Source: Bacilli bacterium (GTDB lineage Bacteria > Bacillota_I > Bacilli_A > RF39 > UBA660). From it: a stretch of 36,568 bases of DNA. Below the pieces are notes generated by a model. That model was not told the origin of the DNA. It saw nothing but the letters and a program-made list of their open reading frames with translations, and ran no database searches. The position numbers and the translations under genes are program-made. This document shows positions 1 through 36,405 of this stretch, one piece after another. The stretch is from positions 1 to 36,568 of the forward strand of contig JAAWCL010000110.1 of assembly GCA_022793235.1 (NCBI GenBank). Reading direction: 5' to 3'. Each line of letters starts with the position of its first letter. The stretch's first letter is position 1.

Positions 1-931
1 AGTAAATGTAGAGGTGAATGGAGTAGAACTAGATAAGAGTAGTGCAACAGTAAAACTAACAAACTCTCTACAATTAAATGCCACCATAACACCTGCTTTT
101 ACAACAGGAGATAGAAATCTTACTTGGACAAGTAGTGATCCAAGAATTGCAACCGTTACCAATACAGGGTTAGTTGAAACTAAAGGAGTAGGAACAACTA
201 CAATTACAGCGACAGCTCCAAATGGAAAGAGTGCTTCAGCAAGTATCAAAGTAGAAGTAGATAACCCAAATATAGCAGGAGCTTATACTTATAATGAGAC
301 AACCTGTCCGACAGGAAAAGAGGACACATGTGAAATAAATACATGTTTATTAAATAAAACAGCAAGTTCTTGTCCAGCAGGAACAGCAATCATTTATAAA
401 GTAAATGATACAACGACTCAAGATTTTCACGTATTGAAAGATAATGGAAATACTCTTACATTAATTTCTACTCAACCAATTGTAACAGGTATTCCCTGGA
501 ATACATCTGGTAATAATGCTGATGGACCATTAACCGTTTTATCATCATTAGAAAATGCCACAAATAACTGGATAAATGTACCACAAATAACATATAATGG
601 AACAACTTATGGAAGTAATAGTTGTGATTCTTATAACGTATGCTCAAATAACATATATTCAATGGGAAATCGTACAGCAAGAGCAAGATTACTTACAGTA
701 CAAGAAGCAAGTAGTGTAGGATGTACAGATACAAGTAATTCTTGTCCAAGTTGGCTATACAGAAAAAACAGTGTAGGATATTGGACTATGTCAGCTGTAG
801 ACTATAATTCAGAATATGCATGGTACGTAACAGGAGATCAAAATGGAGGAAGTCACTATGCTATATATTTTGATGCTCGTGTGCAACTTGATAGTATGGA
901 CACACATGCTGTAATAGAAATTAGTAAATAA
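1..931 (+). CDS. Big_2 Ig-like surface protein with cysteine-containing C-terminal domain (5' partial)
   Basis: The reading frame is open from base 2, so the gene begins before the window; the GTG at 14 is only an internal codon. The first ~80 residues form a bacterial Ig-like Big_2 domain: L-x-A-T-I-T-P, L-T-W-T-S-S-D, A-T-V, G-x-V, G-T-T-T-I-T-A. About 225 residues follow with regularly placed cysteines (TCPTG, DTCEINTC, SSCPAG, SCDSYNVC, GCTDT, SCPSWLY) and an R-A-R-L-L-T-V-Q-E-A ... GYWTMS ... AWYV ... VIEISK pattern. That pattern is typical of the C-terminal domains on secreted prepilin-like or Big_2 proteins of gut Firmicutes. No sorting motif or C-terminal membrane segment is visible, so attachment must come from the missing N-terminus. 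The usual G-V-R-P-V-I before ISK reads T-H-A-V-I here. Role in adhesion or display is inferred. Confidence 0.75.
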   Translation, partial: VNVEVNGVELDKSSATVKLTNSLQLNATITPAFTTGDRNLTWTSSDPRIATVTNTGLVETKGVGTTTITATAPNGKSASASIKVEVDNPNIAGAYTYNETTCPTGKEDTCEINTCLLNKTASSCPAGTAIIYKVNDTTTQDFHVLKDNGNTLTLISTQPIVTGIPWNTSGNNADGPLTVLSSLENATNNWINVPQITYNGTTYGSNSCDSYNVCSNNIYSMGNRTARARLLTVQEASSVGCTDTSNSCPSWLYRKNSVGYWTMSAVDYNSEYAWYVTGDQNGGSHYAIYFDARVQLDSMDTHAVIEISK

Positions 932-4508: not shown

Positions 4509-6377
4509 TTATATTGTATTATTTTCATCAGTAACTAACTCTTCTTTATGTAAAACCTTCACTTTATCATCATTGATCTCTAAATTTTTCTGTTGTTCCT
4601 TTCTAATTTGCTCCAAATCAAATTCTTTTTCTTTTAGATTACTTTGCATTTGATTAAGATTATTAAGAAGTTCCTGACACTCTGGAACATGATTAATATA
4701 TTCTCTATATTCAGTTTTAAAATTATAAATCATTTCATCAAGAGAAAGAGAACACTTATGCAAAGTATCAGCCATCATATTTAACTCATTTAAACGTCCT
4801 AAAATTTCATGACTAAAATCTTCTACTGTAATTTTTCTATATCGTTTATACTGTTTTTGGAGTTTAGGTCTTAAAGCTCTTCTAAAAAAATACATATAAG
4901 CAAGTGTAGCCACAGTAACTTGTCTAGCACCAGAAGTATTAGGTAGCATCATACCAGCAGCTAACAACTGTAATAACCTTTTACTTTGATTATTTAGTAC
5001 AGTAACAGTAGTTTCTATGCGTTCTTCTACTCTTTCAGAATTTGCAAGTTTTTCTTGTAAATTTTGTAAGAGTTTTTCTTGTTCGATTTGAAACTTTTGA
5101 AAATCTTCATTAAATACTTGAAGATTTTCAAATCCTTTTTTCATCAAGTCTATTTCCTTTTCATCATAAGAAATATCCTCCTCTTTATCCAATACATGTT
5201 CTTCAAACTTATCCTTTTTACTTTCTAATTCTGTTATTTTATCAGAAAGTAAGATGTAAAGTTCAGAATCCTTTAACTCATCAATGACAATACCTTTTCC
5301 TAATATATCCATATATTCATTTACAATATTCCGTAAATAATCATCATCATATCTAGAAATATTATCTAAATCAAGCTTTCTTTTTAACTCCTCGATTTTT
5401 AAAATGACAGAATTTAATTTATGAATTAATTCCTTCATATTCTCACTAGTATAAGTAGCATCCTCCTCATCCACCAAAGTATTATATTCATAAATTAACT
5501 TTTTTAAATCATAACGAATACTTCTTAGTTCATTTTCATAGGCCTCTATAAGTTTAATATTTGTTAAACGACTCAAATGATCTGATAAAAAATGCTCTTT
5601 TCTCTCTTTTTTTTCTTGATGAGAATGAAAAAGAAAACTGCCTGTAAAGATTGCAGAAGCATTTAAAAGGGGAGGAGTCCTTCTTTTTAAAGTGTAAGAT
5701 TGCTTTTCTTTTTTTAATCCCTCATTTGCCTGAATATTTATGGCTTTATGTTCATGCCCTATATCTAAGTTAAAAGAAGAATAGTCTCTTTGTAATACAG
5801 ACGACTGCTTTTGAGAATCTTGTTCTTTGGTATCAAAAACTGTATCATCATGTTTCTCTTCAAAAGAAAGGTTAGAAGATTTACTTTGAGAGAATGTATC
5901 TTCTATATCTTCCAAAAGAAGTATCTCATCTTGTTGCTCTTGCACCTCATCTTTTTTAGATGCATCTATAGGCAATTTTATAGAATCAAAAGAGGGTTTA
6001 GATTCTTGTGCATCATAACTTTCTTTTTGAAATTTTTTCTCTTCCTCTTTTTCTAATTTCAAAGTTTCAATTTCTACCAATAAATCCTTATTTTTATTCT
6101 CAAGTAATTGTTTTTCTTCTTTTTCATGCTTTTGATCAGTCTGTACGTTTTTCTCCTTCTTTTTACTAGGTGTGATGACTTCTAAAGTATTGGCAACTAA
6201 GAGTATAGGGATAATTTTAATAAATGTTTCTAAATCAATTCTTTTAATACTTTTTTGCTTTCTACTTTTTTTCTGTACTTTTTCAATCTCTTCTAATTTT
6301 TTCTTTTGATTTCTTGTAAGAATGAAAGTTCTTCTACGATCATTCTTTCCACCTTTGGCACCTATACTTTCATCCAT
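4509..6377 (-). CDS. Large coiled-coil protein, function unknown
   Basis: 622 residues from the chosen start. An ATG 10 codons upstream (6407) is in frame, but GGAGGG lies eight bases before the ATG at 6377, which decides the start. Order: a basic N-terminus (DRRRTF, QKKKLEEIEKVQKK), a short hydrophobic stretch near 50-66 (FIKIIPILLVANTLEVI), a long acidic E/K/Q-rich disordered region to about 230, then long coiled coils from about 270 to 460. A hydrophobic patch follows near 465-490 (LLQLLAAGMMLPNTSG, VATLAYMYFF) and coiled coil to the end. There are no catalytic motifs. It may be a cytoskeletal or envelope-scaffold protein; that is speculation. TAAAC/TATAAT-like elements lie upstream, but the promoter is not clear. 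Confidence 0.8.
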   Translation of the reverse strand: MDESIGAKGGKNDRRRTFILTRNQKKKLEEIEKVQKKSRKQKSIKRIDLETFIKIIPILLVANTLEVITPSKKKEKNVQTDQKHEKEEKQLLENKNKDLLVEIETLKLEKEEEKKFQKESYDAQESKPSFDSIKLPIDASKKDEVQEQQDEILLLEDIEDTFSQSKSSNLSFEEKHDDTVFDTKEQDSQKQSSVLQRDYSSFNLDIGHEHKAINIQANEGLKKEKQSYTLKRRTPPLLNASAIFTGSFLFHSHQEKKERKEHFLSDHLSRLTNIKLIEAYENELRSIRYDLKKLIYEYNTLVDEEDATYTSENMKELIHKLNSVILKIEELKRKLDLDNISRYDDDYLRNIVNEYMDILGKGIVIDELKDSELYILLSDKITELESKKDKFEEHVLDKEEDISYDEKEIDLMKKGFENLQVFNEDFQKFQIEQEKLLQNLQEKLANSERVEERIETTVTVLNNQSKRLLQLLAAGMMLPNTSGARQVTVATLAYMYFFRRALRPKLQKQYKRYRKITVEDFSHEILGRLNELNMMADTLHKCSLSLDEMIYNFKTEYREYINHVPECQELLNNLNQMQSNLKEKEFDLEQIRKEQQKNLEINDDKVKVLHKEELVTDENNTI

Positions 6378-6447
6378 AATATTCCCTCCAAAATGGTTAT
6401 AATCCATATTATATTATCATAAAATAGTAAAGTTTAATACATTTTTC

Positions 6448-27246: not shown

Positions 27247-27268
27247 TTAATTAATGAGGTGGCGTTTT

Positions 27269-27847
27269 ATGAATACAGCATATTATAGAGAATTACAACG
27301 AAAAGAATTAAGGAAAAACATAATATTTACTATATGTATTTTATTATTTGCAACTTTAAGTACCTATTATATTTATAATAAATTTGTAAGTAAGAGAGAT
27401 GAAATATTAAAATCAAATTCTTTAGAAGTAATATTTCATGAACAAAACGGAAATCATTTTTCTATAAATAAACTTTCTCCTATAAGCGACAATGTAGGTC
27501 TATCAACAAAAGCATATAGATTTACAATTAAAAACAATACAAATAAAAGAGTAAAATACAAGGTAAGACTAAAACAAGACAAGGAAAAAATAAAGCAAGA
27601 CAATTGTGTAAATACACAAATCCCAAACAGTATCATAAAATTTGCCATACATGCAAAAAATAAAGAAAATAATATTTATAATTTAGAAGATTTAGAGAAT
27701 AACACAGTGGTAGTAAAAGAATTAGGAGCAAAAGAAGCAGAACAATATACCATACGATTTTGGACTTCTATTAATAACGCTTTAGCATTAGAAGATAGTC
27801 ATTCCTATCATTATCATGGTATAATTGAAGTAATAGAACAAGAATAA
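27269..27847 (+). CDS. Secreted or anchored beta-rich protein, TasA/camelysin-like paralogue 1
   Basis: 192 residues from ATG 27269, chosen because GAGGTGG lies eight bases upstream; an ATG five codons earlier has no such site. One membrane helix at about 18-38 (IIFTICILLFATLSTYYIY) is followed by a beta-rich outer domain with Y-R-F-T-I-K-N-N-T-N-K-R-V-K-Y-K-V-R-L and Y-T-I-R-F-W ... H-S-Y-H-Y-H-G-I-I-E-V-I. The same plan and spacing occur in the next gene (F-V-I-N-N-I-G ... Y-Q-L-K-I ... Y-S-L-R-I-W ... L-H-F-H-P-K-L-T-I-E-A-I), so the two are paralogues. TasA/camelysin-like fibre proteins have this pattern, but no SipW peptidase is nearby; the family call is tentative. Confidence 0.6.
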   Translation: MNTAYYRELQRKELRKNIIFTICILLFATLSTYYIYNKFVSKRDEILKSNSLEVIFHEQNGNHFSINKLSPISDNVGLSTKAYRFTIKNNTNKRVKYKVRLKQDKEKIKQDNCVNTQIPNSIIKFAIHAKNKENNIYNLEDLENNTVVVKELGAKEAEQYTIRFWTSINNALALEDSHSYHYHGIIEVIEQE

Positions 27848-27859
27848 AAGTAAAAATTC

Positions 27860-27888
27860 TTTACTTTGCATAAAATTATTTGTATAAT
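27860..27888 (+). promoter_or_regulatory. Promoter of paralogue 2
   Basis: TTTACT (27860-27865), 17-bp spacer, TATAAT (27883-27888). The -35 lies in the 3' arm of an 8-bp inverted repeat AAAGTAAA / TTTACTTT directly after the previous stop codon. Confidence 0.55.
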
Positions 27889-27892
27889 CTTA

Positions 27893-27911
27893 TTATACAA
27901 TGTTATACAAT
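27893..27911 (+). repeat. Direct repeat TTATACAAT x2 at the transcription start
   Basis: Identical 9-mers at 27893-27901 and 27903-27911, 10 bp apart (one helical turn), placed over and just after the predicted start site. This is the layout of a tandem operator. Confidence 0.5.
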
Positions 27912-27928
27912 AGAAAAAGGGTGAAAAA

Positions 27929-28507
27929 ATGGAGAATACAAAGAAAATAAAATTAAAAATAGTAGGACTTTTAGTTGTTCTATTAATAATTGTAGTAGGA
28001 GTAAGTTATGCGGCATTTACATTTACGAAAAAAGGAGAAACACGAAATATAGTATCAACAGGTACATTAGAAATGAGAGTAACATCAATGAATACATTAT
28101 CCTTAACTGATGCTGTTCCCACAAGAGATATAGATGGACAGTCCTCTGATCCATATACATTTGTAATCAATAATATAGGAACAGCAAGTTCAAGTTATCA
28201 ATTAAAAATAGTAGAAGATACAAAAGAATATGAAAAAGATGGTTGTACAGATAAAAAAATGCCTTGGAACAAGTTAAGATATTCTCTTACAAGAAATGAT
28301 GAGGTAACCCAAACAGGTAATTTAGGAGAGACGAAAGGAATTTTAGATGAGGCAACAATTGAAAATAAGGGAGAAAAAAACTCTTACAGCCTAAGAATTT
28401 GGATAGACCAAGAAGCAGGAATGGAAGTTGCAAACCTACATTTTCATCCAAAGCTTACTATTGAAGCAATCGTTGCAGGACGAGGAGATTATGAAACAGG
28501 ACAATAA
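27929..28507 (+). CDS. Secreted beta-rich protein, TasA/camelysin-like paralogue 2
   Basis: 192 residues. The N-terminal signal region is KKIKLKIVGLLVVLLIIVVGVSYAAF, with a possible signal peptidase site around S-Y-A-A. The mature part begins T-F-T-K-K-G-E-T-R-N-I-V-S-T-G-T-L-E-M, close to the start of TasA/CalY-type secreted fibre proteins (S-x-A-x-F-T, then G-x-L). It has a conserved pair of blocks, Y-T-F-V-I-N-N and Y-S-L-R-I-W-I-D, shared with the gene upstream. Own promoter, direct-repeat operator candidate and terminator. Surface filament or matrix role is inferred from the pattern only. Confidence 0.6.
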   Translation: MENTKKIKLKIVGLLVVLLIIVVGVSYAAFTFTKKGETRNIVSTGTLEMRVTSMNTLSLTDAVPTRDIDGQSSDPYTFVINNIGTASSSYQLKIVEDTKEYEKDGCTDKKMPWNKLRYSLTRNDEVTQTGNLGETKGILDEATIENKGEKNSYSLRIWIDQEAGMEVANLHFHPKLTIEAIVAGRGDYETGQ

Positions 28508-28541
28508 GTCTAGTAAGTAGTTCTATTAGACTTCTTTTTTT
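28506..28541 (+). terminator. Intrinsic terminator of paralogue 2
   Basis: 7-bp stem AAGTCTA (28506-28512) / TAGACTT (28527-28533), then C and a T tract. The 5' arm includes the last bases of the stop codon. Confidence 0.75.
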
Positions 28542-28577
28542 CTTTGTTTATGAATAAACTTAGATAGGAGGAAAAAT

Positions 28578-29666
28578 ATGAGGGTAATCATTGTAGCAGG
28601 TGGAACAGGAGGTCATATTTATCCAGCACTTGCCATTTTAAATAAAATAAAAAAAGAAGAAAAAGAGAGTAATTTCTTATATATAGGTACAACAGACAGA
28701 ATGGAAAAAGAGATTATACCAAAAAAAAATATTCCCTATATTGGCATTCCTATGCAAGGACTAAATAGAAAATATATCCTAAAAAATATAAAAGTATTAA
28801 ATAAATATAGGAAAGCGTATTATAAAGCAAAACAGATTATAAAAGAATTTAATCCAGATATTGTAATAGGTGTAGGAGGCTATATCACCTCTCCCGTTTT
28901 AAAAGCAGCACACACACTTCATTATAAAACAATTATTCATGAACAAAACTCCTATCCAGGTCTTTCCAATAAAATATTATCAAAAAAAGTAGATAAAATA
29001 CTAGTTTCCTTGCCTGAAACGATAAACTTTTTTCCAAAAGAAAAAACAGTATACACAGGAAACCCACGTAGTGAAGAAATCGCTCTAATTAAAAAAGGAA
29101 ACAAGCAAAATTTGCATTTTTCAGCAGATAAAAAATTAGTAATTATTGTTATGGGCTCTTTGGGCTCCAAAACAATAAATAAGAAGTTATTAGATTTGAT
29201 GCCAGCTTTTCAAACAAAAAACTATGAGGTACTAGTAATTACAGGTAATGCATACTATGAAGAATATAAAAAAATAAATATTCCATCTAATGTAAAAATA
29301 TATCCCTTTATTGATAATCTAATTGAAATAATGAAAGTAGCAGACTTAATTATTTCAAGAGCAGGGGCTTCCACTATAGCAGAAATTACAACAATAGGAC
29401 TTCCATCTATTTTAGTACCATCACCTTATGTAACAAATAATCATCAATTAAAAAATGCTAAAGAATTAGAAAAAGTAGGAGCTTGTGTGATTTTAGAAGA
29501 AAAAGATTTTTCAGAGCAATCACTATTACAAAATATAGATGAAATCCTAAATAACAAAGAAAAATATAGGAAAATGCAACAGGCAAACAAGAAATTAGGC
29601 GTGACGGATAGTGCTACTAGGGTGTATAATGAAATAAAAAAATTAGTAAAGGGCGAGTTCAAATGA
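28578..29666 (+). CDS. murg: MurG UDP-GlcNAc:lipid I N-acetylglucosaminyltransferase
   Basis: 362 residues, standard length. It adds GlcNAc to undecaprenyl-PP-MurNAc-pentapeptide to make lipid II on the inner face of the membrane. Motifs: G-G-T-G-G-H-I-Y-P-A at 8-17, G-V-G-G-Y-I-T-S-P near 98, H-E-Q-N-S-Y-P-G-L-S-N, and in the C-terminal domain M-G-S-L-G-S-K, S-R-A-G-A-S-T-I-A-E and P-Y-V-T-N-N-H-Q-L-K-N-A. AGGAGG stands before ATG. The TGA stop overlaps the ATG of murB (ATGA), so the two are translationally coupled. Confidence 0.97.
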   Translation: MRVIIVAGGTGGHIYPALAILNKIKKEEKESNFLYIGTTDRMEKEIIPKKNIPYIGIPMQGLNRKYILKNIKVLNKYRKAYYKAKQIIKEFNPDIVIGVGGYITSPVLKAAHTLHYKTIIHEQNSYPGLSNKILSKKVDKILVSLPETINFFPKEKTVYTGNPRSEEIALIKKGNKQNLHFSADKKLVIIVMGSLGSKTINKKLLDLMPAFQTKNYEVLVITGNAYYEEYKKINIPSNVKIYPFIDNLIEIMKVADLIISRAGASTIAEITTIGLPSILVPSPYVTNNHQLKNAKELEKVGACVILEEKDFSEQSLLQNIDEILNNKEKYRKMQQANKKLGVTDSATRVYNEIKKLVKGEFK

Positions 29667-30568
29667 CAGAGTTTTTAAAAGAGATAATACAAAAAAATCT
29701 TGGAAAGATAGAAGAAAATGTATCTTTACAAAAATACACAACCTATAAAGTAGGAGGAGTCTGTAGGGCACTCATTTATCCCAAGGATATAGACAAATTA
29801 GTAGAGATCCTAAGATTAATAAAAAAATATAAAATTCCCTATAAAATAATTGGAAATGGTTCAAACTTACTATTTAGTGACAAGGAATATAATGGAGTTC
29901 TTTTAAAACTAAACTTTTTAAATAAACTAGAGATTATAGGAAATAAAGTAATTGTAGGAGCAGGATATCCCCTAATAAAACTGTCACTCTTAACAGCAAA
30001 ACATGCTTTAACTGGTCTTGAATTTGCATCAGGCATTCCTGGAACAATAGGTGGTGCAATTTTCATGAATGCAGGAGCCTATAAAAGTGATATGGGCTAT
30101 ATTACCTCTTCAATAAAAGTGATTACAAAAGACTTACAAATTATTACCTTAACAAATAATGAACTAGATTTTCACTATAGAACTTCTTTCTTAAAAAAAC
30201 ATCCAGAATATATTTGTATAGAAGCAACTCTTAAATTAAATTATGGAAAAAAAAGTGAGATAGAAAAAGTAATTAAAGATAGAAGAGAAAGAAGAATAAA
30301 ATCTCAACCATTAGAATATCCCTCTGCAGGATCTGTTTTTAGAAATCCAGAAGAAATACCAGCAGGAAAATTAATAGAAGATTTAGGATTGAAGGGAGTA
30401 ACAAAAGGTGGAGCAGAAGTAAGTAAAAAACATGCCAATTTTATAATCAATGCAAAACAGGCAACTGCACAAGACATCAAAGAATTAATTGAATACGTTC
30501 ATGATACAGTTTTAAAGGAATATAATATTGATCTAAAAGTAGAGCAAGAATTTGTAAACTGGGAGTAA
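29663..30568 (+). CDS. murB: MurB UDP-N-acetylenolpyruvoylglucosamine reductase
   Basis: 301 residues, the short type II MurB. A FAD enzyme that reduces enolpyruvyl-UDP-GlcNAc with NADPH to UDP-MurNAc. FAD-binding signature: T-T-Y-K-V-G-G-V-C, I-G-N-G-S-N-L-L-F, and G-L-E-F-A-S-G-I-P-G-T-I-G-G-A-I-F-M-N-A-G-A-Y. The active-site segment is S-A-G-S-V-F-R-N-P, followed by A-G-K-L-I-E-D-L-G-L-K-G. The end has H-A-N-F-I-I-N and a conserved Glu near E-Q-E-F. The Ser in S-A-G-S-V-F-R is the proton donor in this family. It lies between murG and ftsQ as in the division/cell-wall cluster of Bacillus. Confidence 0.97.
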   Translation: MTEFLKEIIQKNLGKIEENVSLQKYTTYKVGGVCRALIYPKDIDKLVEILRLIKKYKIPYKIIGNGSNLLFSDKEYNGVLLKLNFLNKLEIIGNKVIVGAGYPLIKLSLLTAKHALTGLEFASGIPGTIGGAIFMNAGAYKSDMGYITSSIKVITKDLQIITLTNNELDFHYRTSFLKKHPEYICIEATLKLNYGKKSEIEKVIKDRRERRIKSQPLEYPSAGSVFRNPEEIPAGKLIEDLGLKGVTKGGAEVSKKHANFIINAKQATAQDIKELIEYVHDTVLKEYNIDLKVEQEFVNWE

Positions 30569-30572
30569 TAAT

Positions 30573-31253
30573 ATGACCAAAACAATAGTAAAAAAGAAAA
30601 AATTAAGAATAGGAAGATTATTATTTTTATTATTATTTGTAGCAGTTATAGGACTTTTTCTATACTTCCTAGCCACGACAAAAATAAAAAATATAATTAT
30701 TAAAGGAAATAAGCTTCTATCAGATGAAGAAATAATGAAAATAGCTAAAATCGAAACTTACCCAGAATTTTTTTTAACATGGAATAGTCAAATAAAAGAA
30801 AGACTAGAAAAAAGTCCCTTAATAGAAAATGTATCAATAAAAAAAGATTTTCATAATACAGTAAAAATAAAAGTAAAAGAACAAGAACTCTTAATAAAAA
30901 AAGAACAAACAGCAAAATATGTAACAGCCAAAAATGAAGAAGTAGAATATAAAAAAAATCTTAGAGTGCCAACTCTAAAAAATGAAGTGCCAGAAAAAAA
31001 ATTTAAATCCTTAATAATAAACTTAAAAACAGTAAATAAAGATATTTTAGGTCAAATTGCGGAAATAAAATATGTACCAAATGAATATGATAAAGATCGC
31101 TTTTTATTATATATGAATGATGGAAACTCAGTATATTTAACACTTACAAAATTTGAAATGATTAATTATTATCATAAAGTTTTAGTACAATTAGAAGGAA
31201 GAAAAGGAATCCTCTACCTAGATAGTGGAAATCATTTTAAAATTATGGAATAA
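30573..31253 (+). CDS. ftsQ: FtsQ/DivIB cell division protein
   Basis: 226 residues. Bitopic: a basic N-terminal tail (KKKKLRIGR), one membrane helix at about 15-33, then the POTRA domain beginning K-I-K-N-I-I-I-K-G-N-K-L-L-S-D-E-E-I, and a beta domain with N-V-S-I-K-K-D-F-H-N-T-V-K-I-K-V-K-E-Q. The order and the sequence pattern fit FtsQ/DivIB, which joins FtsL/DivIC at the septum. It starts four bases after the murB stop with GGGAG upstream and ends in a strong terminator, closing the operon. The N-terminal tail is short. Confidence 0.9.
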   Translation: MTKTIVKKKKLRIGRLLFLLLFVAVIGLFLYFLATTKIKNIIIKGNKLLSDEEIMKIAKIETYPEFFLTWNSQIKERLEKSPLIENVSIKKDFHNTVKIKVKEQELLIKKEQTAKYVTAKNEEVEYKKNLRVPTLKNEVPEKKFKSLIINLKTVNKDILGQIAEIKYVPNEYDKDRFLLYMNDGNSVYLTLTKFEMINYYHKVLVQLEGRKGILYLDSGNHFKIME

Positions 31254-31258
31254 TGGAT

Positions 31259-31297
31259 AAATAGCATTTTCTAAAGAAAATTTTGCTATTTTTTTTA
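31259..31297 (+). terminator. Intrinsic terminator of murG-murB-ftsQ
   Basis: 8-bp outer stem AAATAGCA (31259-31266) / TGCTATTT (31284-31291), with an inner TTTTC / GAAAA stem around the loop, then T-rich. Confidence 0.85.
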
Positions 31298-31379
31298 TTT
31301 TATTTATTGTATAATAGACTCTATGAAAGGAGAAATATAAAAAATAAAAAGGTAATAAGTTTAATAAGTAAGGTGAAGT

Positions 31380-31934
31380 ATGAAGTTTTTTAGAAGTAAA
31401 GACAATAAAGAATATTTAATAATACAGTTACAAGAGTATTTAGAATATATATATTTTTATGGACAACCAAAAGTGGAAGAAGAATTACAATATAAGAAAA
31501 TGATAAGAACAATAAGTAATTGCAATTTTTCCATGGATAGTCAAATTGCAATTCACAAAAATAGTCTTTTAGGACAATTTGTATTAGAAAATGTAGATGG
31601 TGTAAGGATTATAGATGAAGACTGCAAAATAACAGAAGAAAAAATAAGAAATGCCATATTAATTGCCATTTATGATAATGTAGATTTTAAATTACTTAAT
31701 AAATTAGAAACAATATTTAGGGATGGAAAAAGAGGTTCAATTGTAGAACTAGAAAAAATGGGATATAACAGAGACATATTAAAGCAAATTGCAGAAACAG
31801 AAGATATAGATACTCATATAAAGAAAAAGAACAATGAGTATATACCAAAAAATTTTATTGTATTTGAAAATAGAGAAATAATGTATAAAAATCTTTTGAA
31901 TGGAGATTATCAATATAAAAAAGAATTAAAATAG
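31380..31934 (+). CDS. Hypothetical cytoplasmic protein
   Basis: 184 residues, mixed alpha/beta, no membrane segment, no recognised motif. The middle (SMDSQIAIHKNSLLGQFVLENVDGVRIID) and a run of short helices after it do not match a family I know. AAGGTGA precedes ATG 31380, and TATAAT at 31310-31315 may be the -10 of the operon. It ends 17 bases before miaB, so it is probably co-transcribed with miaB, the ricA-like gene and perhaps cotE. Confidence 0.72.
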   Translation: MKFFRSKDNKEYLIIQLQEYLEYIYFYGQPKVEEELQYKKMIRTISNCNFSMDSQIAIHKNSLLGQFVLENVDGVRIIDEDCKITEEKIRNAILIAIYDNVDFKLLNKLETIFRDGKRGSIVELEKMGYNRDILKQIAETEDIDTHIKKKNNEYIPKNFIVFENREIMYKNLLNGDYQYKKELK

Positions 31935-31951
31935 AAGTGGAAGTGAGGTAT

Positions 31952-33364
31952 ATGAATTTACCAAATTACAAAGAAGCGAGAAAAAGAGAAAAAAATTATA
32001 AAAGAATTAGCTATATATTAGATAAAAAATATATAGGTAAATATAGTGAAAAAAAATATTTTCTAAAAACATATGGTTGTCAAATGAATGAACATGATAG
32101 TGAAAATATAAAAGCATTACTAGAAAAGATGGGATTCATAGAAATTGAAGAATATGAACATGCAGATTTAATATTGTTAAATACCTGTTCAATAAGAGAA
32201 AATGCCCACAATAAAGCATTTGGAATGTTAGGAAGATTAAAACATTTAAAAGAAAAGAGAAAAGATTTAATAGTAGGTTTATGTGGTTGTATGGCTCAAG
32301 AAGAAGGCGTAATCGACCAAATTATGAAAAAATATAAGTTTGTAAACTTTGTATTTGGAACCCACAATATAAATCATCTTCCAGAAATAGTAGATAAAGC
32401 AATAATAAAAAATAAACAAGAAATAGAAGTCTTTTCAAAAGAAGGAGATTTAATAGAAAATATGCCTGTAAGACGTGCGAATAGTTATAAGGCCTATGTA
32501 AATATTATTTATGGTTGTGATAAGTTTTGCACATATTGCATCGTTCCCTTTACAAGAGGAGGAGAACGTAGCAGAAGAAAAGAAGACATCTTAAAGGAAA
32601 TCGATAGTTTAGTAAAAGATGGCTATCAAGAAGTAACCTTATTGGGTCAAAATGTAAATGCTTATGGAAAAGATTTATATGATGACTATGGATTAGGAGA
32701 CTTATTAGAGGATGTAAGTAAAACAAATATTCCAAGAATTCGTTTTACAACCTCTCATCCATGGGATTTTACAGATAAAATGATAGATATAATAGCAAAG
32801 TATGATAATATTATGCCTAGTATTCATCTCCCTCTACAATCTGGTAGTAGTAAAATATTAAAATTAATGGGCAGACGCTACACAAAAGAAAGTTATTTAG
32901 AGCTATTTAATAAGATGAAAGAAAAAATACCAAATGTTGCAATATCTACAGATATTATTGTAGGTTTTCCAGGAGAAACAGAAGAAGACTTCTTAGAAAC
33001 ATTAGAAGTAGTCGAACATTGTAAATATGACAATGCCTTTACTTTCATTTATTCAAAAAGAGAAAATACAGCTGCAGCAAAATTAAAGGATGAAATAAGT
33101 CAATCAGAAAAGGAAAACAGATTACAAAGACTAAATAACATAGTAAATAAATATTTTTTAGAAAAAAATAAAAAGCTAGTAGGATGTACAGTAGAAGTAT
33201 TAACAGAAGGAAAAAGTCCAAAGAAAGAGAATTTGTATTATGGATATACTAAGACCAATAAATTAGTAAATTTTGATGGACAAAATATAAAAGAAGGAGA
33301 ATTAGTATCTGTTAAGATTACAGATGCTAAAACATGGAGCCTAGATGGAAAAGTATTTAAATAA
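31952..33364 (+). CDS. miaB: MiaB tRNA methylthiotransferase
   Basis: 470 residues from ATG 31952; a GTG five codons upstream has no binding site. It converts i6A37 to ms2i6A37 in tRNAs reading UNN codons, using two 4Fe-4S clusters and SAM. First cluster: C in K-T-Y-G-C-Q-M-N, C in N-T-C-S-I-R-E, C in G-C-M-A-Q. Radical SAM cluster: Y-G-C-D-K-F-C-T-Y-C-I-V-P. Then S-T-D-I-I-V-G-F-P-G-E-T and a C-terminal TRAM domain. The N-terminal extension of ~35 residues is normal for Bacillus-type MiaB. It overlaps the ricA-like gene by 20 bases. Confidence 0.96.
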   Translation: MNLPNYKEARKREKNYKRISYILDKKYIGKYSEKKYFLKTYGCQMNEHDSENIKALLEKMGFIEIEEYEHADLILLNTCSIRENAHNKAFGMLGRLKHLKEKRKDLIVGLCGCMAQEEGVIDQIMKKYKFVNFVFGTHNINHLPEIVDKAIIKNKQEIEVFSKEGDLIENMPVRRANSYKAYVNIIYGCDKFCTYCIVPFTRGGERSRRKEDILKEIDSLVKDGYQEVTLLGQNVNAYGKDLYDDYGLGDLLEDVSKTNIPRIRFTTSHPWDFTDKMIDIIAKYDNIMPSIHLPLQSGSSKILKLMGRRYTKESYLELFNKMKEKIPNVAISTDIIVGFPGETEEDFLETLEVVEHCKYDNAFTFIYSKRENTAAAKLKDEISQSEKENRLQRLNNIVNKYFLEKNKKLVGCTVEVLTEGKSPKKENLYYGYTKTNKLVNFDGQNIKEGELVSVKITDAKTWSLDGKVFK

Positions 33365-33701
33365 CAACTCAAGTGAGAAACTTGATAAAATAATAAAATA
33401 TATAATGAATAGTAAACCCTATATAAAGGTAAAAGAATTAAAAGAGAAAATGAAAAAAGATACATCCTTAATGAATTTAATAAATGATGTAAAAGCTTTA
33501 CAAAAAACCTATATTAAAAGTGGAAAAGATAAAAAAATAAAAAAGGACTTAGACGAAAAATTAAATCATCTAAATAAAAATAATTTATATGCAGAATATA
33601 ACTATTATTTAGAACAAGTAAACAAAATGATCGATTTTGTAAATGAAGAATTAAATGCCTATTTCCATAATTTAACAAATAACATAGTATTAGATAAATA
33701 A
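33345..33701 (+). CDS. ricA: YlbF/YmcA family protein, probably RicA
   Basis: 118 residues, all-helical. K-P-Y-I-K-V-K-E-L-K-E-K-M-K-K-D near 25-40 and the following Q-K-T-Y-I-K-S segment match the Com_YlbF fold. In Bacillus, YmcA (RicA) sits directly after miaB (ymcB), as here, and works with YlbF and YaaT in the Y-complex that directs RNase Y mRNA processing and affects sporulation, competence and biofilm. Position is the main reason to choose RicA over YlbF. GGAG five bases before ATG 33345 lies inside miaB. A terminator follows. Confidence 0.75.
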   Translation: MEKYLNNNSSEKLDKIIKYIMNSKPYIKVKELKEKMKKDTSLMNLINDVKALQKTYIKSGKDKKIKKDLDEKLNHLNKNNLYAEYNYYLEQVNKMIDFVNEELNAYFHNLTNNIVLDK

Positions 33702-33706
33702 CAAAT

Positions 33707-33734
33707 AGTAACAATTTTTGTGTTACTTTTTTTC
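33707..33734 (+). terminator. Intrinsic terminator after the ricA-like gene
   Basis: 7-bp stem AGTAACA (33707-33713) / TGTTACT (33721-33727), seven-base loop, then seven T. Confidence 0.85.
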
Positions 33735-33752
33735 TATTTCTTGCATAGACTA
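33725..33752 (+). promoter_or_regulatory. Possible sporulation-sigma (sigma-K/E-type) promoter of cotE
   Basis: GCATAGACTA at 33743-33752 fits the sigma-K -10 consensus gCATAnnnTA and 7 of 8 positions of the sigma-E -10 CATACAnT. AC at 33725-33726, 16 bases upstream, fits the minimal sigma-K -35. No sigma-A pair is visible here. The implied leader is very short, about 14 bases, and chance matches are common in AT-rich DNA. Confidence 0.35.
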
Positions 33753-33771
33753 AAGTAGAGGAGGGAAAAAA

Positions 33772-34299
33772 GTGGCAAATTATCGTGAAATCGTTACAAA
33801 GACAGTAATAGGAAAAGGCAAAAAAACGTTTATAACTAATAGTAGAAAATCGGTTGAAAATACCCCATCTACCATATTAGGATGTTGGGTAATTAATCAT
33901 ACTTTTAAAGGGGAAAAGTATGGAGAAAAAGTAAATATAAAAGGAAGTTATGATATTAATGTTTGGTACTCTTATGATAACGACACAAAAACAGATGTTA
34001 TAAAACAAACAGACCATTATAATGAAATCGTAACAATAAAAAATAATCGTGAAGTATTAAATGAGGAAATCATAGTAAGAAGCTTAAAACAGCCTAGTTG
34101 TACAAAAGTAGAAATAGATGGAAATGATATTGTATATACTATAGAAAAAGAGTTAGGAATTGAACTAGTAGGAGATGAAAAAGTAAAAATAGAAACAAGT
34201 GAAGAAGAAGATCCTTGGGATGAAATAATTGATGATGTAGGAGATCAAATTGAAAACACAGTACAAGAGAATTATATAGACGAAAGTAAAGATATATAA
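33772..34299 (+). CDS. cotE: CotE-like outer spore coat morphogenetic protein
   Basis: 175 residues from GTG 33772 with AGGAGGG upstream. The N-terminus N-Y-R-E-I-V-T-K-T-V-I-G-K-G-K-K, then P-S-T-I-L-G-C-W-V-I-N-H, G-S-Y-D-I-N-V-W-Y-S-Y-x-x-D-T-K-T-D-V, and L-K-Q-P-S-C follow Bacillus CotE through its length. The C-terminus is acidic (EEEDPWDEIID), also as in CotE. In Bacillus, CotE assembles the outer coat, is placed by SpoIVA-dependent steps, and its gene follows ymcA, exactly as here. mutS, next in Bacillus, is missing. No other sporulation gene lies in the window. Confidence 0.85.
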   Translation: MANYREIVTKTVIGKGKKTFITNSRKSVENTPSTILGCWVINHTFKGEKYGEKVNIKGSYDINVWYSYDNDTKTDVIKQTDHYNEIVTIKNNREVLNEEIIVRSLKQPSCTKVEIDGNDIVYTIEKELGIELVGDEKVKIETSEEEDPWDEIIDDVGDQIENTVQENYIDESKDI

Positions 34300-34335
34300 T
34301 TCTTTTATTCTTGTCATATTTTGTAGAAAAATATT

Positions 34336-34364
34336 TTGACAGTAACTATCAAATATGGTAATAT
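34336..34364 (+). promoter_or_regulatory. Strong promoter of the + strand structured RNA
   Basis: Perfect TTGACA (34336-34341), 17-bp spacer ending in TGG (extended -10), TAATAT (34359-34364). The predicted start is about G34371. No ribosome binding site or ORF follows. Confidence 0.75.
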
Positions 34365-34370
34365 TAAATT

Positions 34371-34663
34371 GTCAAAAGATTTGCAAAGTAGGAAAGGTTT
34401 TTAGTTGATAATGCTAATAAAAAGTATTATTTACTAATGATGTTTTTCATGGAAGAATACCCACACTACTATGAAAAATAGAAATAGTAATATCAACGTA
34501 CCTATCATATTTAATCTTTTCTAGCTGTAGGTTTTGACAGGCAAGTAAGAAGATATATAATGCATGATATATCACTTTACTTACCCACATGTGGAGAACT
34601 CTATTTTTTCCGTAGTAGGGTTTTCTAAGAAATAAAGACGCTTGCCTGTGAGGCGTGTTTTTT
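34371..34663 (+). ncRNA. Candidate structured RNA of about 290 nt, two domains
   Basis: Domain I is closed by TAGGAAAGGTT (34389-34399) with AATCTTTTCTA (34513-34523), 11 bp with two G-U. Inside are GTTGATA (34404-34410)/TATCAAC (34491-34497), a side hairpin AATGCT/AGTATT (34410-34428, sharing A34410 with the GTTGATA arm), TTACTA/TAGTAA (34431-34436/34485-34490) and TTTTTCAT/ATGAAAAA (34443-34450/34471-34478). Domain II is closed by ACAGGCAAG (34537-34545)/CTTGCCTGT (34641-34649) and holds hairpins TAAG..GATATAT/ATATATC..CTTA (34546-34583) and GAGAACTCTA/TAGGGTTTTC (34594-34603/34616-34625). TACCCACA occurs in both domains, at 34458 and 34582. It lacks the sequences I know for RNase P, tmRNA, SRP and T-box; 6S and raiA are not excluded. 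Confidence 0.65.
34638..34663 (+). terminator. Terminator of the structured RNA, overlapping its closing helix
   Basis: ACG [CTTG] CCT GTG AGG CGT followed by GTTTTTT: six base pairs with a four-base bulge. The 5' arm is part of the CTTGCCTGT strand of the domain II closing helix, so the two pairings compete. Confidence 0.6.
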
Positions 34664-34691
34664 AAATGTATAGATTGATATTTATTATCTA

Positions 34692-34725
34692 AAAAAGCTA
34701 TTAATGAATAAATTAATAGCTTTTT
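34692..34725 (+). terminator. Long perfect hairpin, bidirectional terminator
   Basis: 14-bp perfect stem AAAAAGCTATTAAT (34692-34705) / ATTAATAGCTTTTT (34712-34725), loop GAATAA. It separates the two opposing RNA units and can stop transcription from both sides. Confidence 0.8.
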
Positions 34726-34831
34726 CTTGATTTTATATAATAAGAAAAAGATTTATGATAATATATTTTTATTAATGAAACCTATCTTTAAATATAGAAC
34801 AATTTAAAAATAGCTAAGAAAAATAGGATAT

Positions 34832-34985
34832 GAAAAAATAAAAAAAGACTATCCGAATAAATCAAATAATCTTTTAATTTCTATTGAAGCTACACCCCCT
34901 GAAAGGGTAGCTTCTTAAAAAAGAATAAAAAGGGGTTGGCTAGTGTGATACTAGCGACCAATTCGCCTAATAACCGAATTGGTGA
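34832..34985 (-). ncRNA. Candidate small RNA of about 150 nt on the minus strand
   Basis: Between a minus-strand TTGACA-17-TAAGAT promoter and a 10-bp terminator lie three clean hairpins in + coordinates: ACCAATTCG/CGAATTGGT (34957-34965/34975-34983), GCTAGT/ACTAGC (34939-34944/34950-34955) and GAAGCTAC/GTAGCTTC (34886-34893/34907-34914) with inner C/G pairs. An unpaired CAACCCCTTTTT stretch between hairpins 2 and 3 can pair with AGGGG in hairpin 3, a possible pseudoknot. There is no ORF with a binding site. It looks like a free-standing regulatory RNA; no known family is recognised. Confidence 0.6.
34840..34875 (-). terminator. Terminator of the minus-strand RNA
   Basis: Minus strand: AAAAGATTAT (34875-34866) / ATAGTCTTTT (34852-34843), 10 bp with one G-U, followed by a long T tract (A-run at 34832-34846 on +). 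Confidence 0.75.
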
Positions 34986-34990
34986 TTACT

Positions 34991-35019
34991 ATCTTAATCA
35001 TTCTTGAGGCATTTGTCAA
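34991..35019 (-). promoter_or_regulatory. Promoter of the minus-strand RNA
   Basis: Minus strand: perfect TTGACA (35019-35014), 17-bp spacer, TAAGAT (34996-34991). Confidence 0.7.
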
Positions 35020-35066
35020 CATTTTTTTAACATTTTTTTATGAAATACAGACTATATAAGAAATAG

Positions 35067-35095
35067 TTGAAAATTTTACCAAAAAATAGTATAAT
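35067..35095 (+). promoter_or_regulatory. Sigma-A promoter of the transglutaminase-like gene
   Basis: TTGAAA (35067-35072), 17-bp spacer, perfect TATAAT (35090-35095). Confidence 0.75.
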
Positions 35096-35124
35096 TAGAA
35101 TGTTTTACTAACGGGGGAAACTTT

Positions 35125-36405
35125 ATGAAAGAAATAAAAATTATAACAAAAAGAAATAGAATAAGAATGGTATTAGGTGCTTTAATTCTTAGCTCATCCA
35201 TAGGAGTATCGAATAAAAGAAAAGAAAAAAGACCAGATCCTATATCAGAAGGTATATATGAATATGTGTATGATACAGAAAAGGAAGGATTACACATAAA
35301 ACAAGATTTAGAGGAAATAAAAACTTTAATAGTTAGTGCAGAAGACTGTGATTTTAAAGATATAGCGCGTTTTCCAAATCTACAAGAAATAAAAATACTA
35401 AATCCAGAAAAACTAACAAAAGAAGATAAAATTTATATTAATTCCTATGAAGATATAAAAAAAATAAAATTAATTTTAAATGGAACGAGTATACAGAAGA
35501 AAAACATCATAGATTTATCTTGGATTGATGAAAAAATAAATATAGTCATAGATAAAAATGCAAATTTAGAACTATTTAGAAAAGATTTAGTAGATCTATA
35601 TTTATATAACCTATATAATAATTTAAATGAAAAGGACAAAAATAGAATTTCATTTGAATGCTTAAATAAGGAAAGAATGGAAGAATTAACAAAATGGCAT
35701 TATATATTAAGTAGTATTGTAAACTCATTTTCCTTTACAGAAGAAACAACAGAAGAAGAAAAAGTAATGACAATTGCCTATTATGTAACAAGAGCACTAG
35801 AATATGATCCAGAAATAGCAGAAAGACTAAATAGTGAAACAAAAAAACTATATGATGAGAAAATATATTATTACAATCATAATTTATTAGGAGCTCTTTT
35901 TAATAGAGAGGGAAATTATGGAATATGTTGTAATTATGCAGCTTTAACCAGTATACTAGGATATTACGCAAATGTGCCCTTAAAATATACAAGTGGAATA
36001 TATGATGAAGGAGAAAACAACCAACATGCTTGGTGTACTTATAAGGATACAATTGTAGATACAACTTTTCTAGATGAAAACTCCTCTTATATAAGTCTTA
36101 GTGAAAAACTATATAACACATTGGATGAAGAAAAAAAAGAAAGATATATAAGATACATAAGAAAAATAGTATTTGAAACATCAAATCTTTATAAAGCACA
36201 AAAAACTATATTAGAAAAATTGTATGATCAAAATGAAGAAAAGAACTACATTATAAACGAAGAAGAAATGGAAATATATAATTTGAATCAAAAACTATTA
36301 TTAATTTATGAAATGATTAATGCAATTTCCATCTTATTACTTGGAGAAAATTTAGTAAATAAAAAGGATAAAGAAAAAAAGTATTGCAAAACAAAAAATA
36401 AATAA
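35125..36405 (+). CDS. Transglutaminase-like (papain-fold) protein with N-terminal membrane anchor
   Basis: 426 residues. A basic start (KRNRIRM) and a short hydrophobic stretch (VLGALILSSSIGV, about 15-27) suggest export or anchoring. Residues ~45-130 have spaced leucine/isoleucine strands (IKTLIVS ... LQEIKIL ... IKKIKLILNG), somewhat LRR-like. The catalytic core has G-I-C268-C-N-Y-A, H301 in N-N-Q-H-A-W, and D312 in I-V-D-T-T-F-L-D: the Cys-His-Asp triad of the transglutaminase core family. Bacterial members act as peptidases or cross-linkers at the surface; which one applies is unknown. GGGGG lies before ATG. It has its own promoter and no clear terminator. Confidence 0.78.
   Translation: MKEIKIITKRNRIRMVLGALILSSSIGVSNKRKEKRPDPISEGIYEYVYDTEKEGLHIKQDLEEIKTLIVSAEDCDFKDIARFPNLQEIKILNPEKLTKEDKIYINSYEDIKKIKLILNGTSIQKKNIIDLSWIDEKINIVIDKNANLELFRKDLVDLYLYNLYNNLNEKDKNRISFECLNKERMEELTKWHYILSSIVNSFSFTEETTEEEKVMTIAYYVTRALEYDPEIAERLNSETKKLYDEKIYYYNHNLLGALFNREGNYGICCNYAALTSILGYYANVPLKYTSGIYDEGENNQHAWCTYKDTIVDTTFLDENSSYISLSEKLYNTLDEEKKERYIRYIRKIVFETSNLYKAQKTILEKLYDQNEEKNYIINEEEMEIYNLNQKLLLIYEMINAISILLLGENLVNKKDKEKKYCKTKNK

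Follow-up and report, generated by a model that had tools for sequence, protein, structure and literature searches.

The 825-nucleotide spacer between cotE and a transglutaminase-like gene of a gut bacterium probably accommodates two independent, convergent RNA genes: RNA A on the plus strand and RNA B on the minus strand, the latter probably acting in trans as an antisense RNA. As judged from sequence, RNA B is a new RNA family of a known kind, a small regulatory RNA, that is not included in Rfam 15. Roughly nine in ten genomes of a large family of uncultured gut bacteria with small genomes have retained it. RNA A is a probable transcript of this lineage and an orphan. Transcription is predicted for both.

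The window, that is the whole stretch of 36,568 nucleotides that was analysed, is one complete contig (C42) of a draft genome of 1.6 Mb in 279 contigs, the close relatives of which are uncultured gut Bacilli. The genes to the left of the spacer code for MurG, MurB, an FtsQ-like POTRA protein, MiaB, a YlbF-like protein and CotE, and the gene to the right codes for a protein with a transglutaminase core. The transglutaminase-like gene is rare, being found in 4 of 193 genomes. The initial annotation described the 825 bases as free of protein genes, and indeed no open reading frame of at least 60 amino acids lies wholly within positions 34300-35124. A minus-strand frame of 73 amino acids (35076-35297) overlaps the gene next to the spacer.

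Folding z-scores were calculated along the whole contig, on both strands, in 810 windows of 180 nucleotides. The top rank is held by 34831-35010 on the minus strand (z about -7). The strongest fold of the window, at 34840-34985 on the minus strand of the spacer (z about -5 to -7), had been missed by the initial annotation; direct folding of 34838-35012 (minus) gave a z-score of -5.2. Positions 34561-34740 on the plus strand rank fourth (z -5.3). The second rank belongs to 4951-5220 on the plus strand (z -6.8), which is inside a minus-strand open reading frame of 632 amino acids (4509-6407) that has no Pfam match. The minus-strand fold of the spacer is RNA B, which has the following features:

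34991-35019, minus strand: promoter, TTGACA-17-TAAGAT
34840-34985, minus strand: approximate transcript, the ends being placed from the promoter and the terminator; z -5.2, homologues present
34957-34983, minus strand: helix 1, ACCAAUUCG...CGAAUUGGU, enclosing a loop whose length varies
34939-34955, minus strand: helix 2, GCUAGU-AUCAC-ACUAGC, nearly invariant
34920-34940, minus strand: single-stranded segment GCCAACCCCUUUUUAUUCUUU, a candidate seed
34886-34914, minus strand: helix 3, the terminator hairpin, all 7 pairs of which covary across the family
34836-34871, minus strand: second terminator hairpin of the window copy, GAUUAUUUGA..UCGGAUAGUC followed by a T-run, predicted from sequence and fold

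A DNA search with 34836-35020 (minus) gave a match in 42 of 60 relatives at E <=0.01. In most family members the matches have 80-93% identity over 70-180 nucleotides, and they extend across genera. The covariance model of RNA B, R3, was built after 31 copies had been aligned. It matches 34878-34988 (minus) in the window and finds RNA B in 298 of 338 genomes and 144 of 150 genera of the family, nearly always as one copy. The draft state of the genomes may explain part of the absences. In a class-wide sample R3 matched 49 of 395 genomes, every one from the same family; the 341 genomes from elsewhere in the class gave no match. Rfam 15 has no match on RNA B in 12 relatives, and its best match in the window (E 0.12) is that of a microRNA model on another hairpin. 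The core sequence of RNA B does not occur in the literature searched. One locus (L288, 2000-2350; G351:C1) carries a tandem pair of RNA B copies, both of which have a promoter and a terminator of their own.

A sigma-A-type promoter, TTGAC[AT]-15..18-TAnn[AG]T, is recognized by its consensus upstream of all 77 copies. A T-run directly follows helix 3 in 68 of the 77, and a second terminator follows the first in many copies. The segment GCCAACCCCUUUUUAUUCUUU is nearly letter-perfect across copies and is unpaired in the predicted fold. In the alignment of 78 copies 98.0% of the cells are paired, double-sided changes occupy 155 cells compared to 40.5 in shuffles, and the covariation score is 0.286 versus 0.042-0.069 when the partners are slid; this alignment had been made to fit the structure and thus favours it, but the margin is nonetheless large. 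Covariation is concentrated in helix 3, where 7 of 7 pairs have changed on both sides. Two pairs of helix 1 covary, and helix 2 hardly varies. A small protein encoded on the plus strand is rejected as an explanation of this conservation because the loops change length without keeping the reading frame and the stems covary.

The terminator hairpin also invites the reading that RNA B is a cis-acting leader, a riboswitch or an attenuator, in which helix 3 would be the regulated terminator. The loop of helix 3 is CAGGGGG in 66 of 77 copies and could pair with an upstream CCCC. However, this sequence is missing in the other 11, and a universal CCCC/GGGGG pseudoknot was discarded for that reason. 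The second terminators behind the first also fit a leader poorly. RNA B is not the leader of the downstream gene, because in 26 of 31 loci, that of the window included, the next open reading frame has the opposite orientation, and a leader function is thus very improbable. The neighbour of RNA B in the window is the transglutaminase-like gene. Upstream, recG is found within 1.5 kb in 34 of 77 loci, and it is divergent every time.

RNA B, which would be made from about 34985 down to 34840, resembles a housekeeping gene for a small RNA that belongs to the family as a whole, and most likely functions as a trans-acting antisense RNA. Its two 5' hairpins and the terminator hairpin would present the invariant C/U-rich strand. 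This segment, flanked by stable hairpins, has the appearance of a seed, which would pair with purine-rich AAAAGGGG stretches of mRNAs. In some genera the best candidate target is rsmH.

Complementary sites were sought with the exact 15-mer AATAAAAAGGGGTTG in 136 family genomes, in which a control pattern had 0 matches. Outside the gene of RNA B itself the 15-mer occurs in few places. Two of these are inside rsmH, in genera g6 and g80 (L281 and L285), where the complement extends perfectly over 23 nucleotides with a predicted energy of -35.7 kcal/mol, compared to a background best of -24.2 among 140,908 windows. The other sites are at the start of a parB-like gene in one genome, in G017, in a prophage of G011 and in a leader of G015. 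The shorter pattern AAAAGGGGTT is found in rsmH, at the same codons, in 5 of 8 genomes of the window's genus, and other protein genes do not recur. In that genus the rsmH complement has one bulge (L227, L223, L225, L226 and L244), and its pairing is worth about -22 kcal/mol, a value that the background reaches a few times per Mb, or several times per genome. The rsmH gene of G032 has no site complementary to the invariant segment of RNA B. Since the segment is invariant nevertheless, rsmH cannot by itself explain its invariance. The complementarity is not family-wide, which makes rsmH a candidate target rather than an established one. At the G015 site (L161, at about 2532-2571; G015:C25) an opposite-strand leader contains a 26-nucleotide exact complement of the RNA B tail, overlapping an intrinsic terminator hairpin. 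RNA B might act on this leader by antitermination.

Helix 2 and the tail of RNA B also occur outside the RNA. Exact copies of this module, CGCTAGTATCACACTAGCCAACCCCTTTTTATTCTTTTT, were found upstream of terminase genes in a prophage and in two IMG/VR contigs:

L159, 2193-2279: module in the prophage
L248, 4310-4346, minus strand: module in an IMG/VR contig
L249, 8114-8150, plus strand: module in an IMG/VR contig

In L248 and L249 the module is directly behind a tRNA-like ...CCCACCA end, which the Rfam tRNA model scores with 35 bits and in which ARAGORN calls no tRNA. The tRNA-like end closes a non-coding stretch of about 700-900 nucleotides. These copies suggest that helix 2 and the tail form a self-contained module, perhaps recognized by a host factor, and they agree equally well with an antisense seed and with a module for protein binding or processing.

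The phage copies are the main support for a rival explanation, in which the hairpin GCUAGUAUCACACUAGC and the C/U-rich tail would serve RNA B to bind a protein, such as RNA polymerase, an RNase or a regulator of translation, in the manner of 6S or CsrB-type RNAs, and complementarity to mRNAs is secondary. It is exactly helix 2 and the tail that the phages have copied behind tRNA-like RNAs, and the near invariance of both over the aligned copies exceeds what pairing with changing mRNAs would demand. On the other hand, a 23-nucleotide perfect complement in two diverged rsmH genes would be unexpected, and 6S RNA itself has a separate gene in this genome. Protein binding is possible, and is regarded here as a minority view beside the antisense function. 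A broader and rather speculative proposal combines these observations: as a family-wide regulator, RNA B would link some signal to genes of the cell wall and of division (rsmH, the first enzyme gene after mraZ in the mraZ cluster, and parB in one genome), and phages would have captured the hairpin-plus-tail module, which they would carry behind tRNA-like RNAs in order to exploit or titrate the host factor by which it is recognized. The conservation of RNA B suggests an important role and makes it a ready object for tests. The complementarity to rsmH and the phage-borne module make the mechanism directly testable.

RNA A, on the opposite strand, is the element that was originally reported in the spacer, as an undescribed-looking structured RNA with two domains. 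Its features are:

34336-34364, plus strand: promoter P1, TTGACA-17-TAATAT with TG before the -10 element
34369-34538, plus strand: domain 1, predicted by folding, with a closing helix UGUCAA../..UUGACA, an 11-bp helix and two inner hairpins
34534-34561, plus strand: internal promoter with a 12/12 consensus, TTGACA-16-TATAAT, overlapping the border of domains 1 and 2
34540-34585, plus strand: first hairpin of domain 2, which doubles as a 46-nucleotide imperfect DNA palindrome over the internal -10 element
34592-34627, plus strand: second hairpin of domain 2, 14 bp, predicted by folding
34638-34662, plus strand: intrinsic terminator, a hairpin (34638-34656) and a T-run, the left arm of which can alternatively pair with 34537-34545

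The strong extended -10 promoter and the terminator claimed by the initial annotation are both present. The internal promoter is the sole 12/12 consensus promoter of the whole window, where 0.13 would be expected. The alternative pairing that competes with the terminator hairpin has 9 bp, ACAGGCAAG (34537) with CTTGCCTGT (34641). Neither this pairing nor the internal promoter had been mentioned in the initial annotation. The fold of 34369-34662 has an energy of -79.0 kcal/mol versus -54.8 +/- 4.9 for dinucleotide shuffles (z -4.93), and 0 of 200 shuffles are as good. The minus strand of 34330-34680 folds less strongly (z -2.5). The unusual degree of pairing on the promoter strand is thus confirmed, but some of the helices that had been stated to be perfect include G-U pairs, 16 among 100 pairs in all. 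AT-rich hairpins form easily, and the other strong folds in the window call for caution with RNA A. The reverse strand of the first hairpin of domain 2 matches the hairpin's own covariance model. The 8-mer TACCCACA is present once in each domain, at 34458-34465 and 34582-34589, at or near unpaired positions.

No Rfam 15 model matches RNA A at gathering scores, and none matches 33900-34900 up to E 10. The 6S RNA of this genome (RF00013) was located elsewhere, at C49:15217-15398, with a good score of 61.5 bits, and there is no 6S match at the RNA A locus, in line with the original opinion that RNA A is not 6S. The Cas9 HNH_4 domain has no match in the genome, which is about 91% complete, so that this result is not final. 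No CRISPR array was seen in the window. Neither a reverse transcriptase nor a transposase is among the ten proteins encoded at 27254-36405, the contig ending at 36568. For these reasons RNA A was rejected as an Rfam member, a 6S RNA, a tracrRNA or a retron RNA. Its size and two-domain layout, and the two promoters, which are frequent in tracrRNA genes, are what speaks for a divergent form of a known RNA (6S, RNase P, tmRNA, SRP, tracrRNA or retron RNA). Against the results above, this explanation is largely refuted and very improbable.

Covariance models of the two domains, R1 and R2, each made from a single sequence, match only their own genome among 291 genomes of the family, and the best other match has E 0.04. 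A search of 88 sequences from cotE neighbourhoods (about 0.9 Mb) with both models found nothing convincing, and RNA A has no second copy in its own genome. Short DNA matches in relatives (best E 3e-6 over 45 nucleotides) are at scattered, unrelated sites and were dismissed as AT-rich chance similarity. RNA A has no relatives in these sets, therefore there is no covariation for its helices. The lack of covariation in relatives is one half of what the initial annotation had named as a refutation. The promoter-strand fold, the absence from Rfam and the distinction from 6S RNA have stood, but the reading of RNA A as an RNA class is not supported. RNA A serves as a caution that a strong fold and good signals in a single genome are not evidence of a class.

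Several other readings of RNA A were considered and rejected. It is not phage- or plasmid-borne, as judged by the lack of plasmid, phage or viral matches. A link to the transglutaminase gene was dismissed on account of the rarity of that gene. RNA A is not an antisense partner of RNA B: their duplex is no better than that of shuffles (0.99 as good), and no interaction is predicted.

The congeners possess cotE, yet in the loci that were read the region downstream of it differs. By reading of the sequences, cotE is followed by galE-like and ribosomal S16-like genes in G002 and by an FtsA-like gene in G007. In G003 (L032, G003:C6) the region codes for a small protein followed by a reverse transcriptase and has what may be a template repeat, an arrangement that resembles diversity-generating retroelements. 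In G004 (L034, G004:C33) a CRISPR array with the repeat GTTTTAGATCTATGTCATTTTGAATGGTACTCAAAC is directly behind cotE, and no cas gene was recognized within the 1.5 kb read.

The reverse transcriptase and the array in this flank of congeners, the 46-nucleotide palindrome and the restriction of RNA A to its own genome would all agree with a fragment of a mobile element that has decayed or fallen silent, an inverted-repeat DNA structured as a palindrome rather than a functional RNA. Against this, the ten proteins at 27254-36405 include neither of the two enzymes named above, the genome has no second copy, plasmid, phage and viral sequences gave no match, and the strong promoters and the terminator are intact. 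This explanation deserves serious attention, but is the less probable one. Most likely, RNA A (about 34369-34662, plus) is a genuine, sigma-A-promoted and intrinsically terminated transcript of about 290 nucleotides, and a shorter form of about 95 nucleotides would start from the internal promoter. Within this lineage it would be accessory or evolve fast, it would not represent a conserved class, and its likeliest roles would be those of a small regulatory RNA or a mobile-element remnant.

Both RNAs can be compared with well studied systems. RNA A is similar to the tracrRNA of type II CRISPR systems in having two promoters, hairpins and a terminator, and the corresponding site of a congener is occupied by a CRISPR array, but this genome has no Cas9 HNH_4 match and the window no visible array. 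Domain 1, closed by an inverted repeat and containing a small and a long inner hairpin, is reminiscent of retron msr-msd RNA, whereas the neighbouring proteins tested include no reverse transcriptase. RNA B is like 6S RNA (RF00013) in being small, structured, by prediction independently transcribed, and nearly universal in its clade. Unlike 6S RNA, it does not form a single rod, has no 6S match and coexists with a separate 6S locus. Small RNAs of the RsaE/RoxS type act in trans in Gram-positive bacteria and have seeds that are single-stranded and rich in C. RNA B differs from them in having no Rfam similarity, in being confined, within the genomes sampled, to a single family of uncultured Bacilli, in that its targets are candidates, and in that its module is found in phages. 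Nevertheless, RNA B shares with this type its own promoter and terminator, an intergenic, single-copy gene, a conserved C-rich unpaired segment and candidate targets at purine-rich sites of mRNAs.
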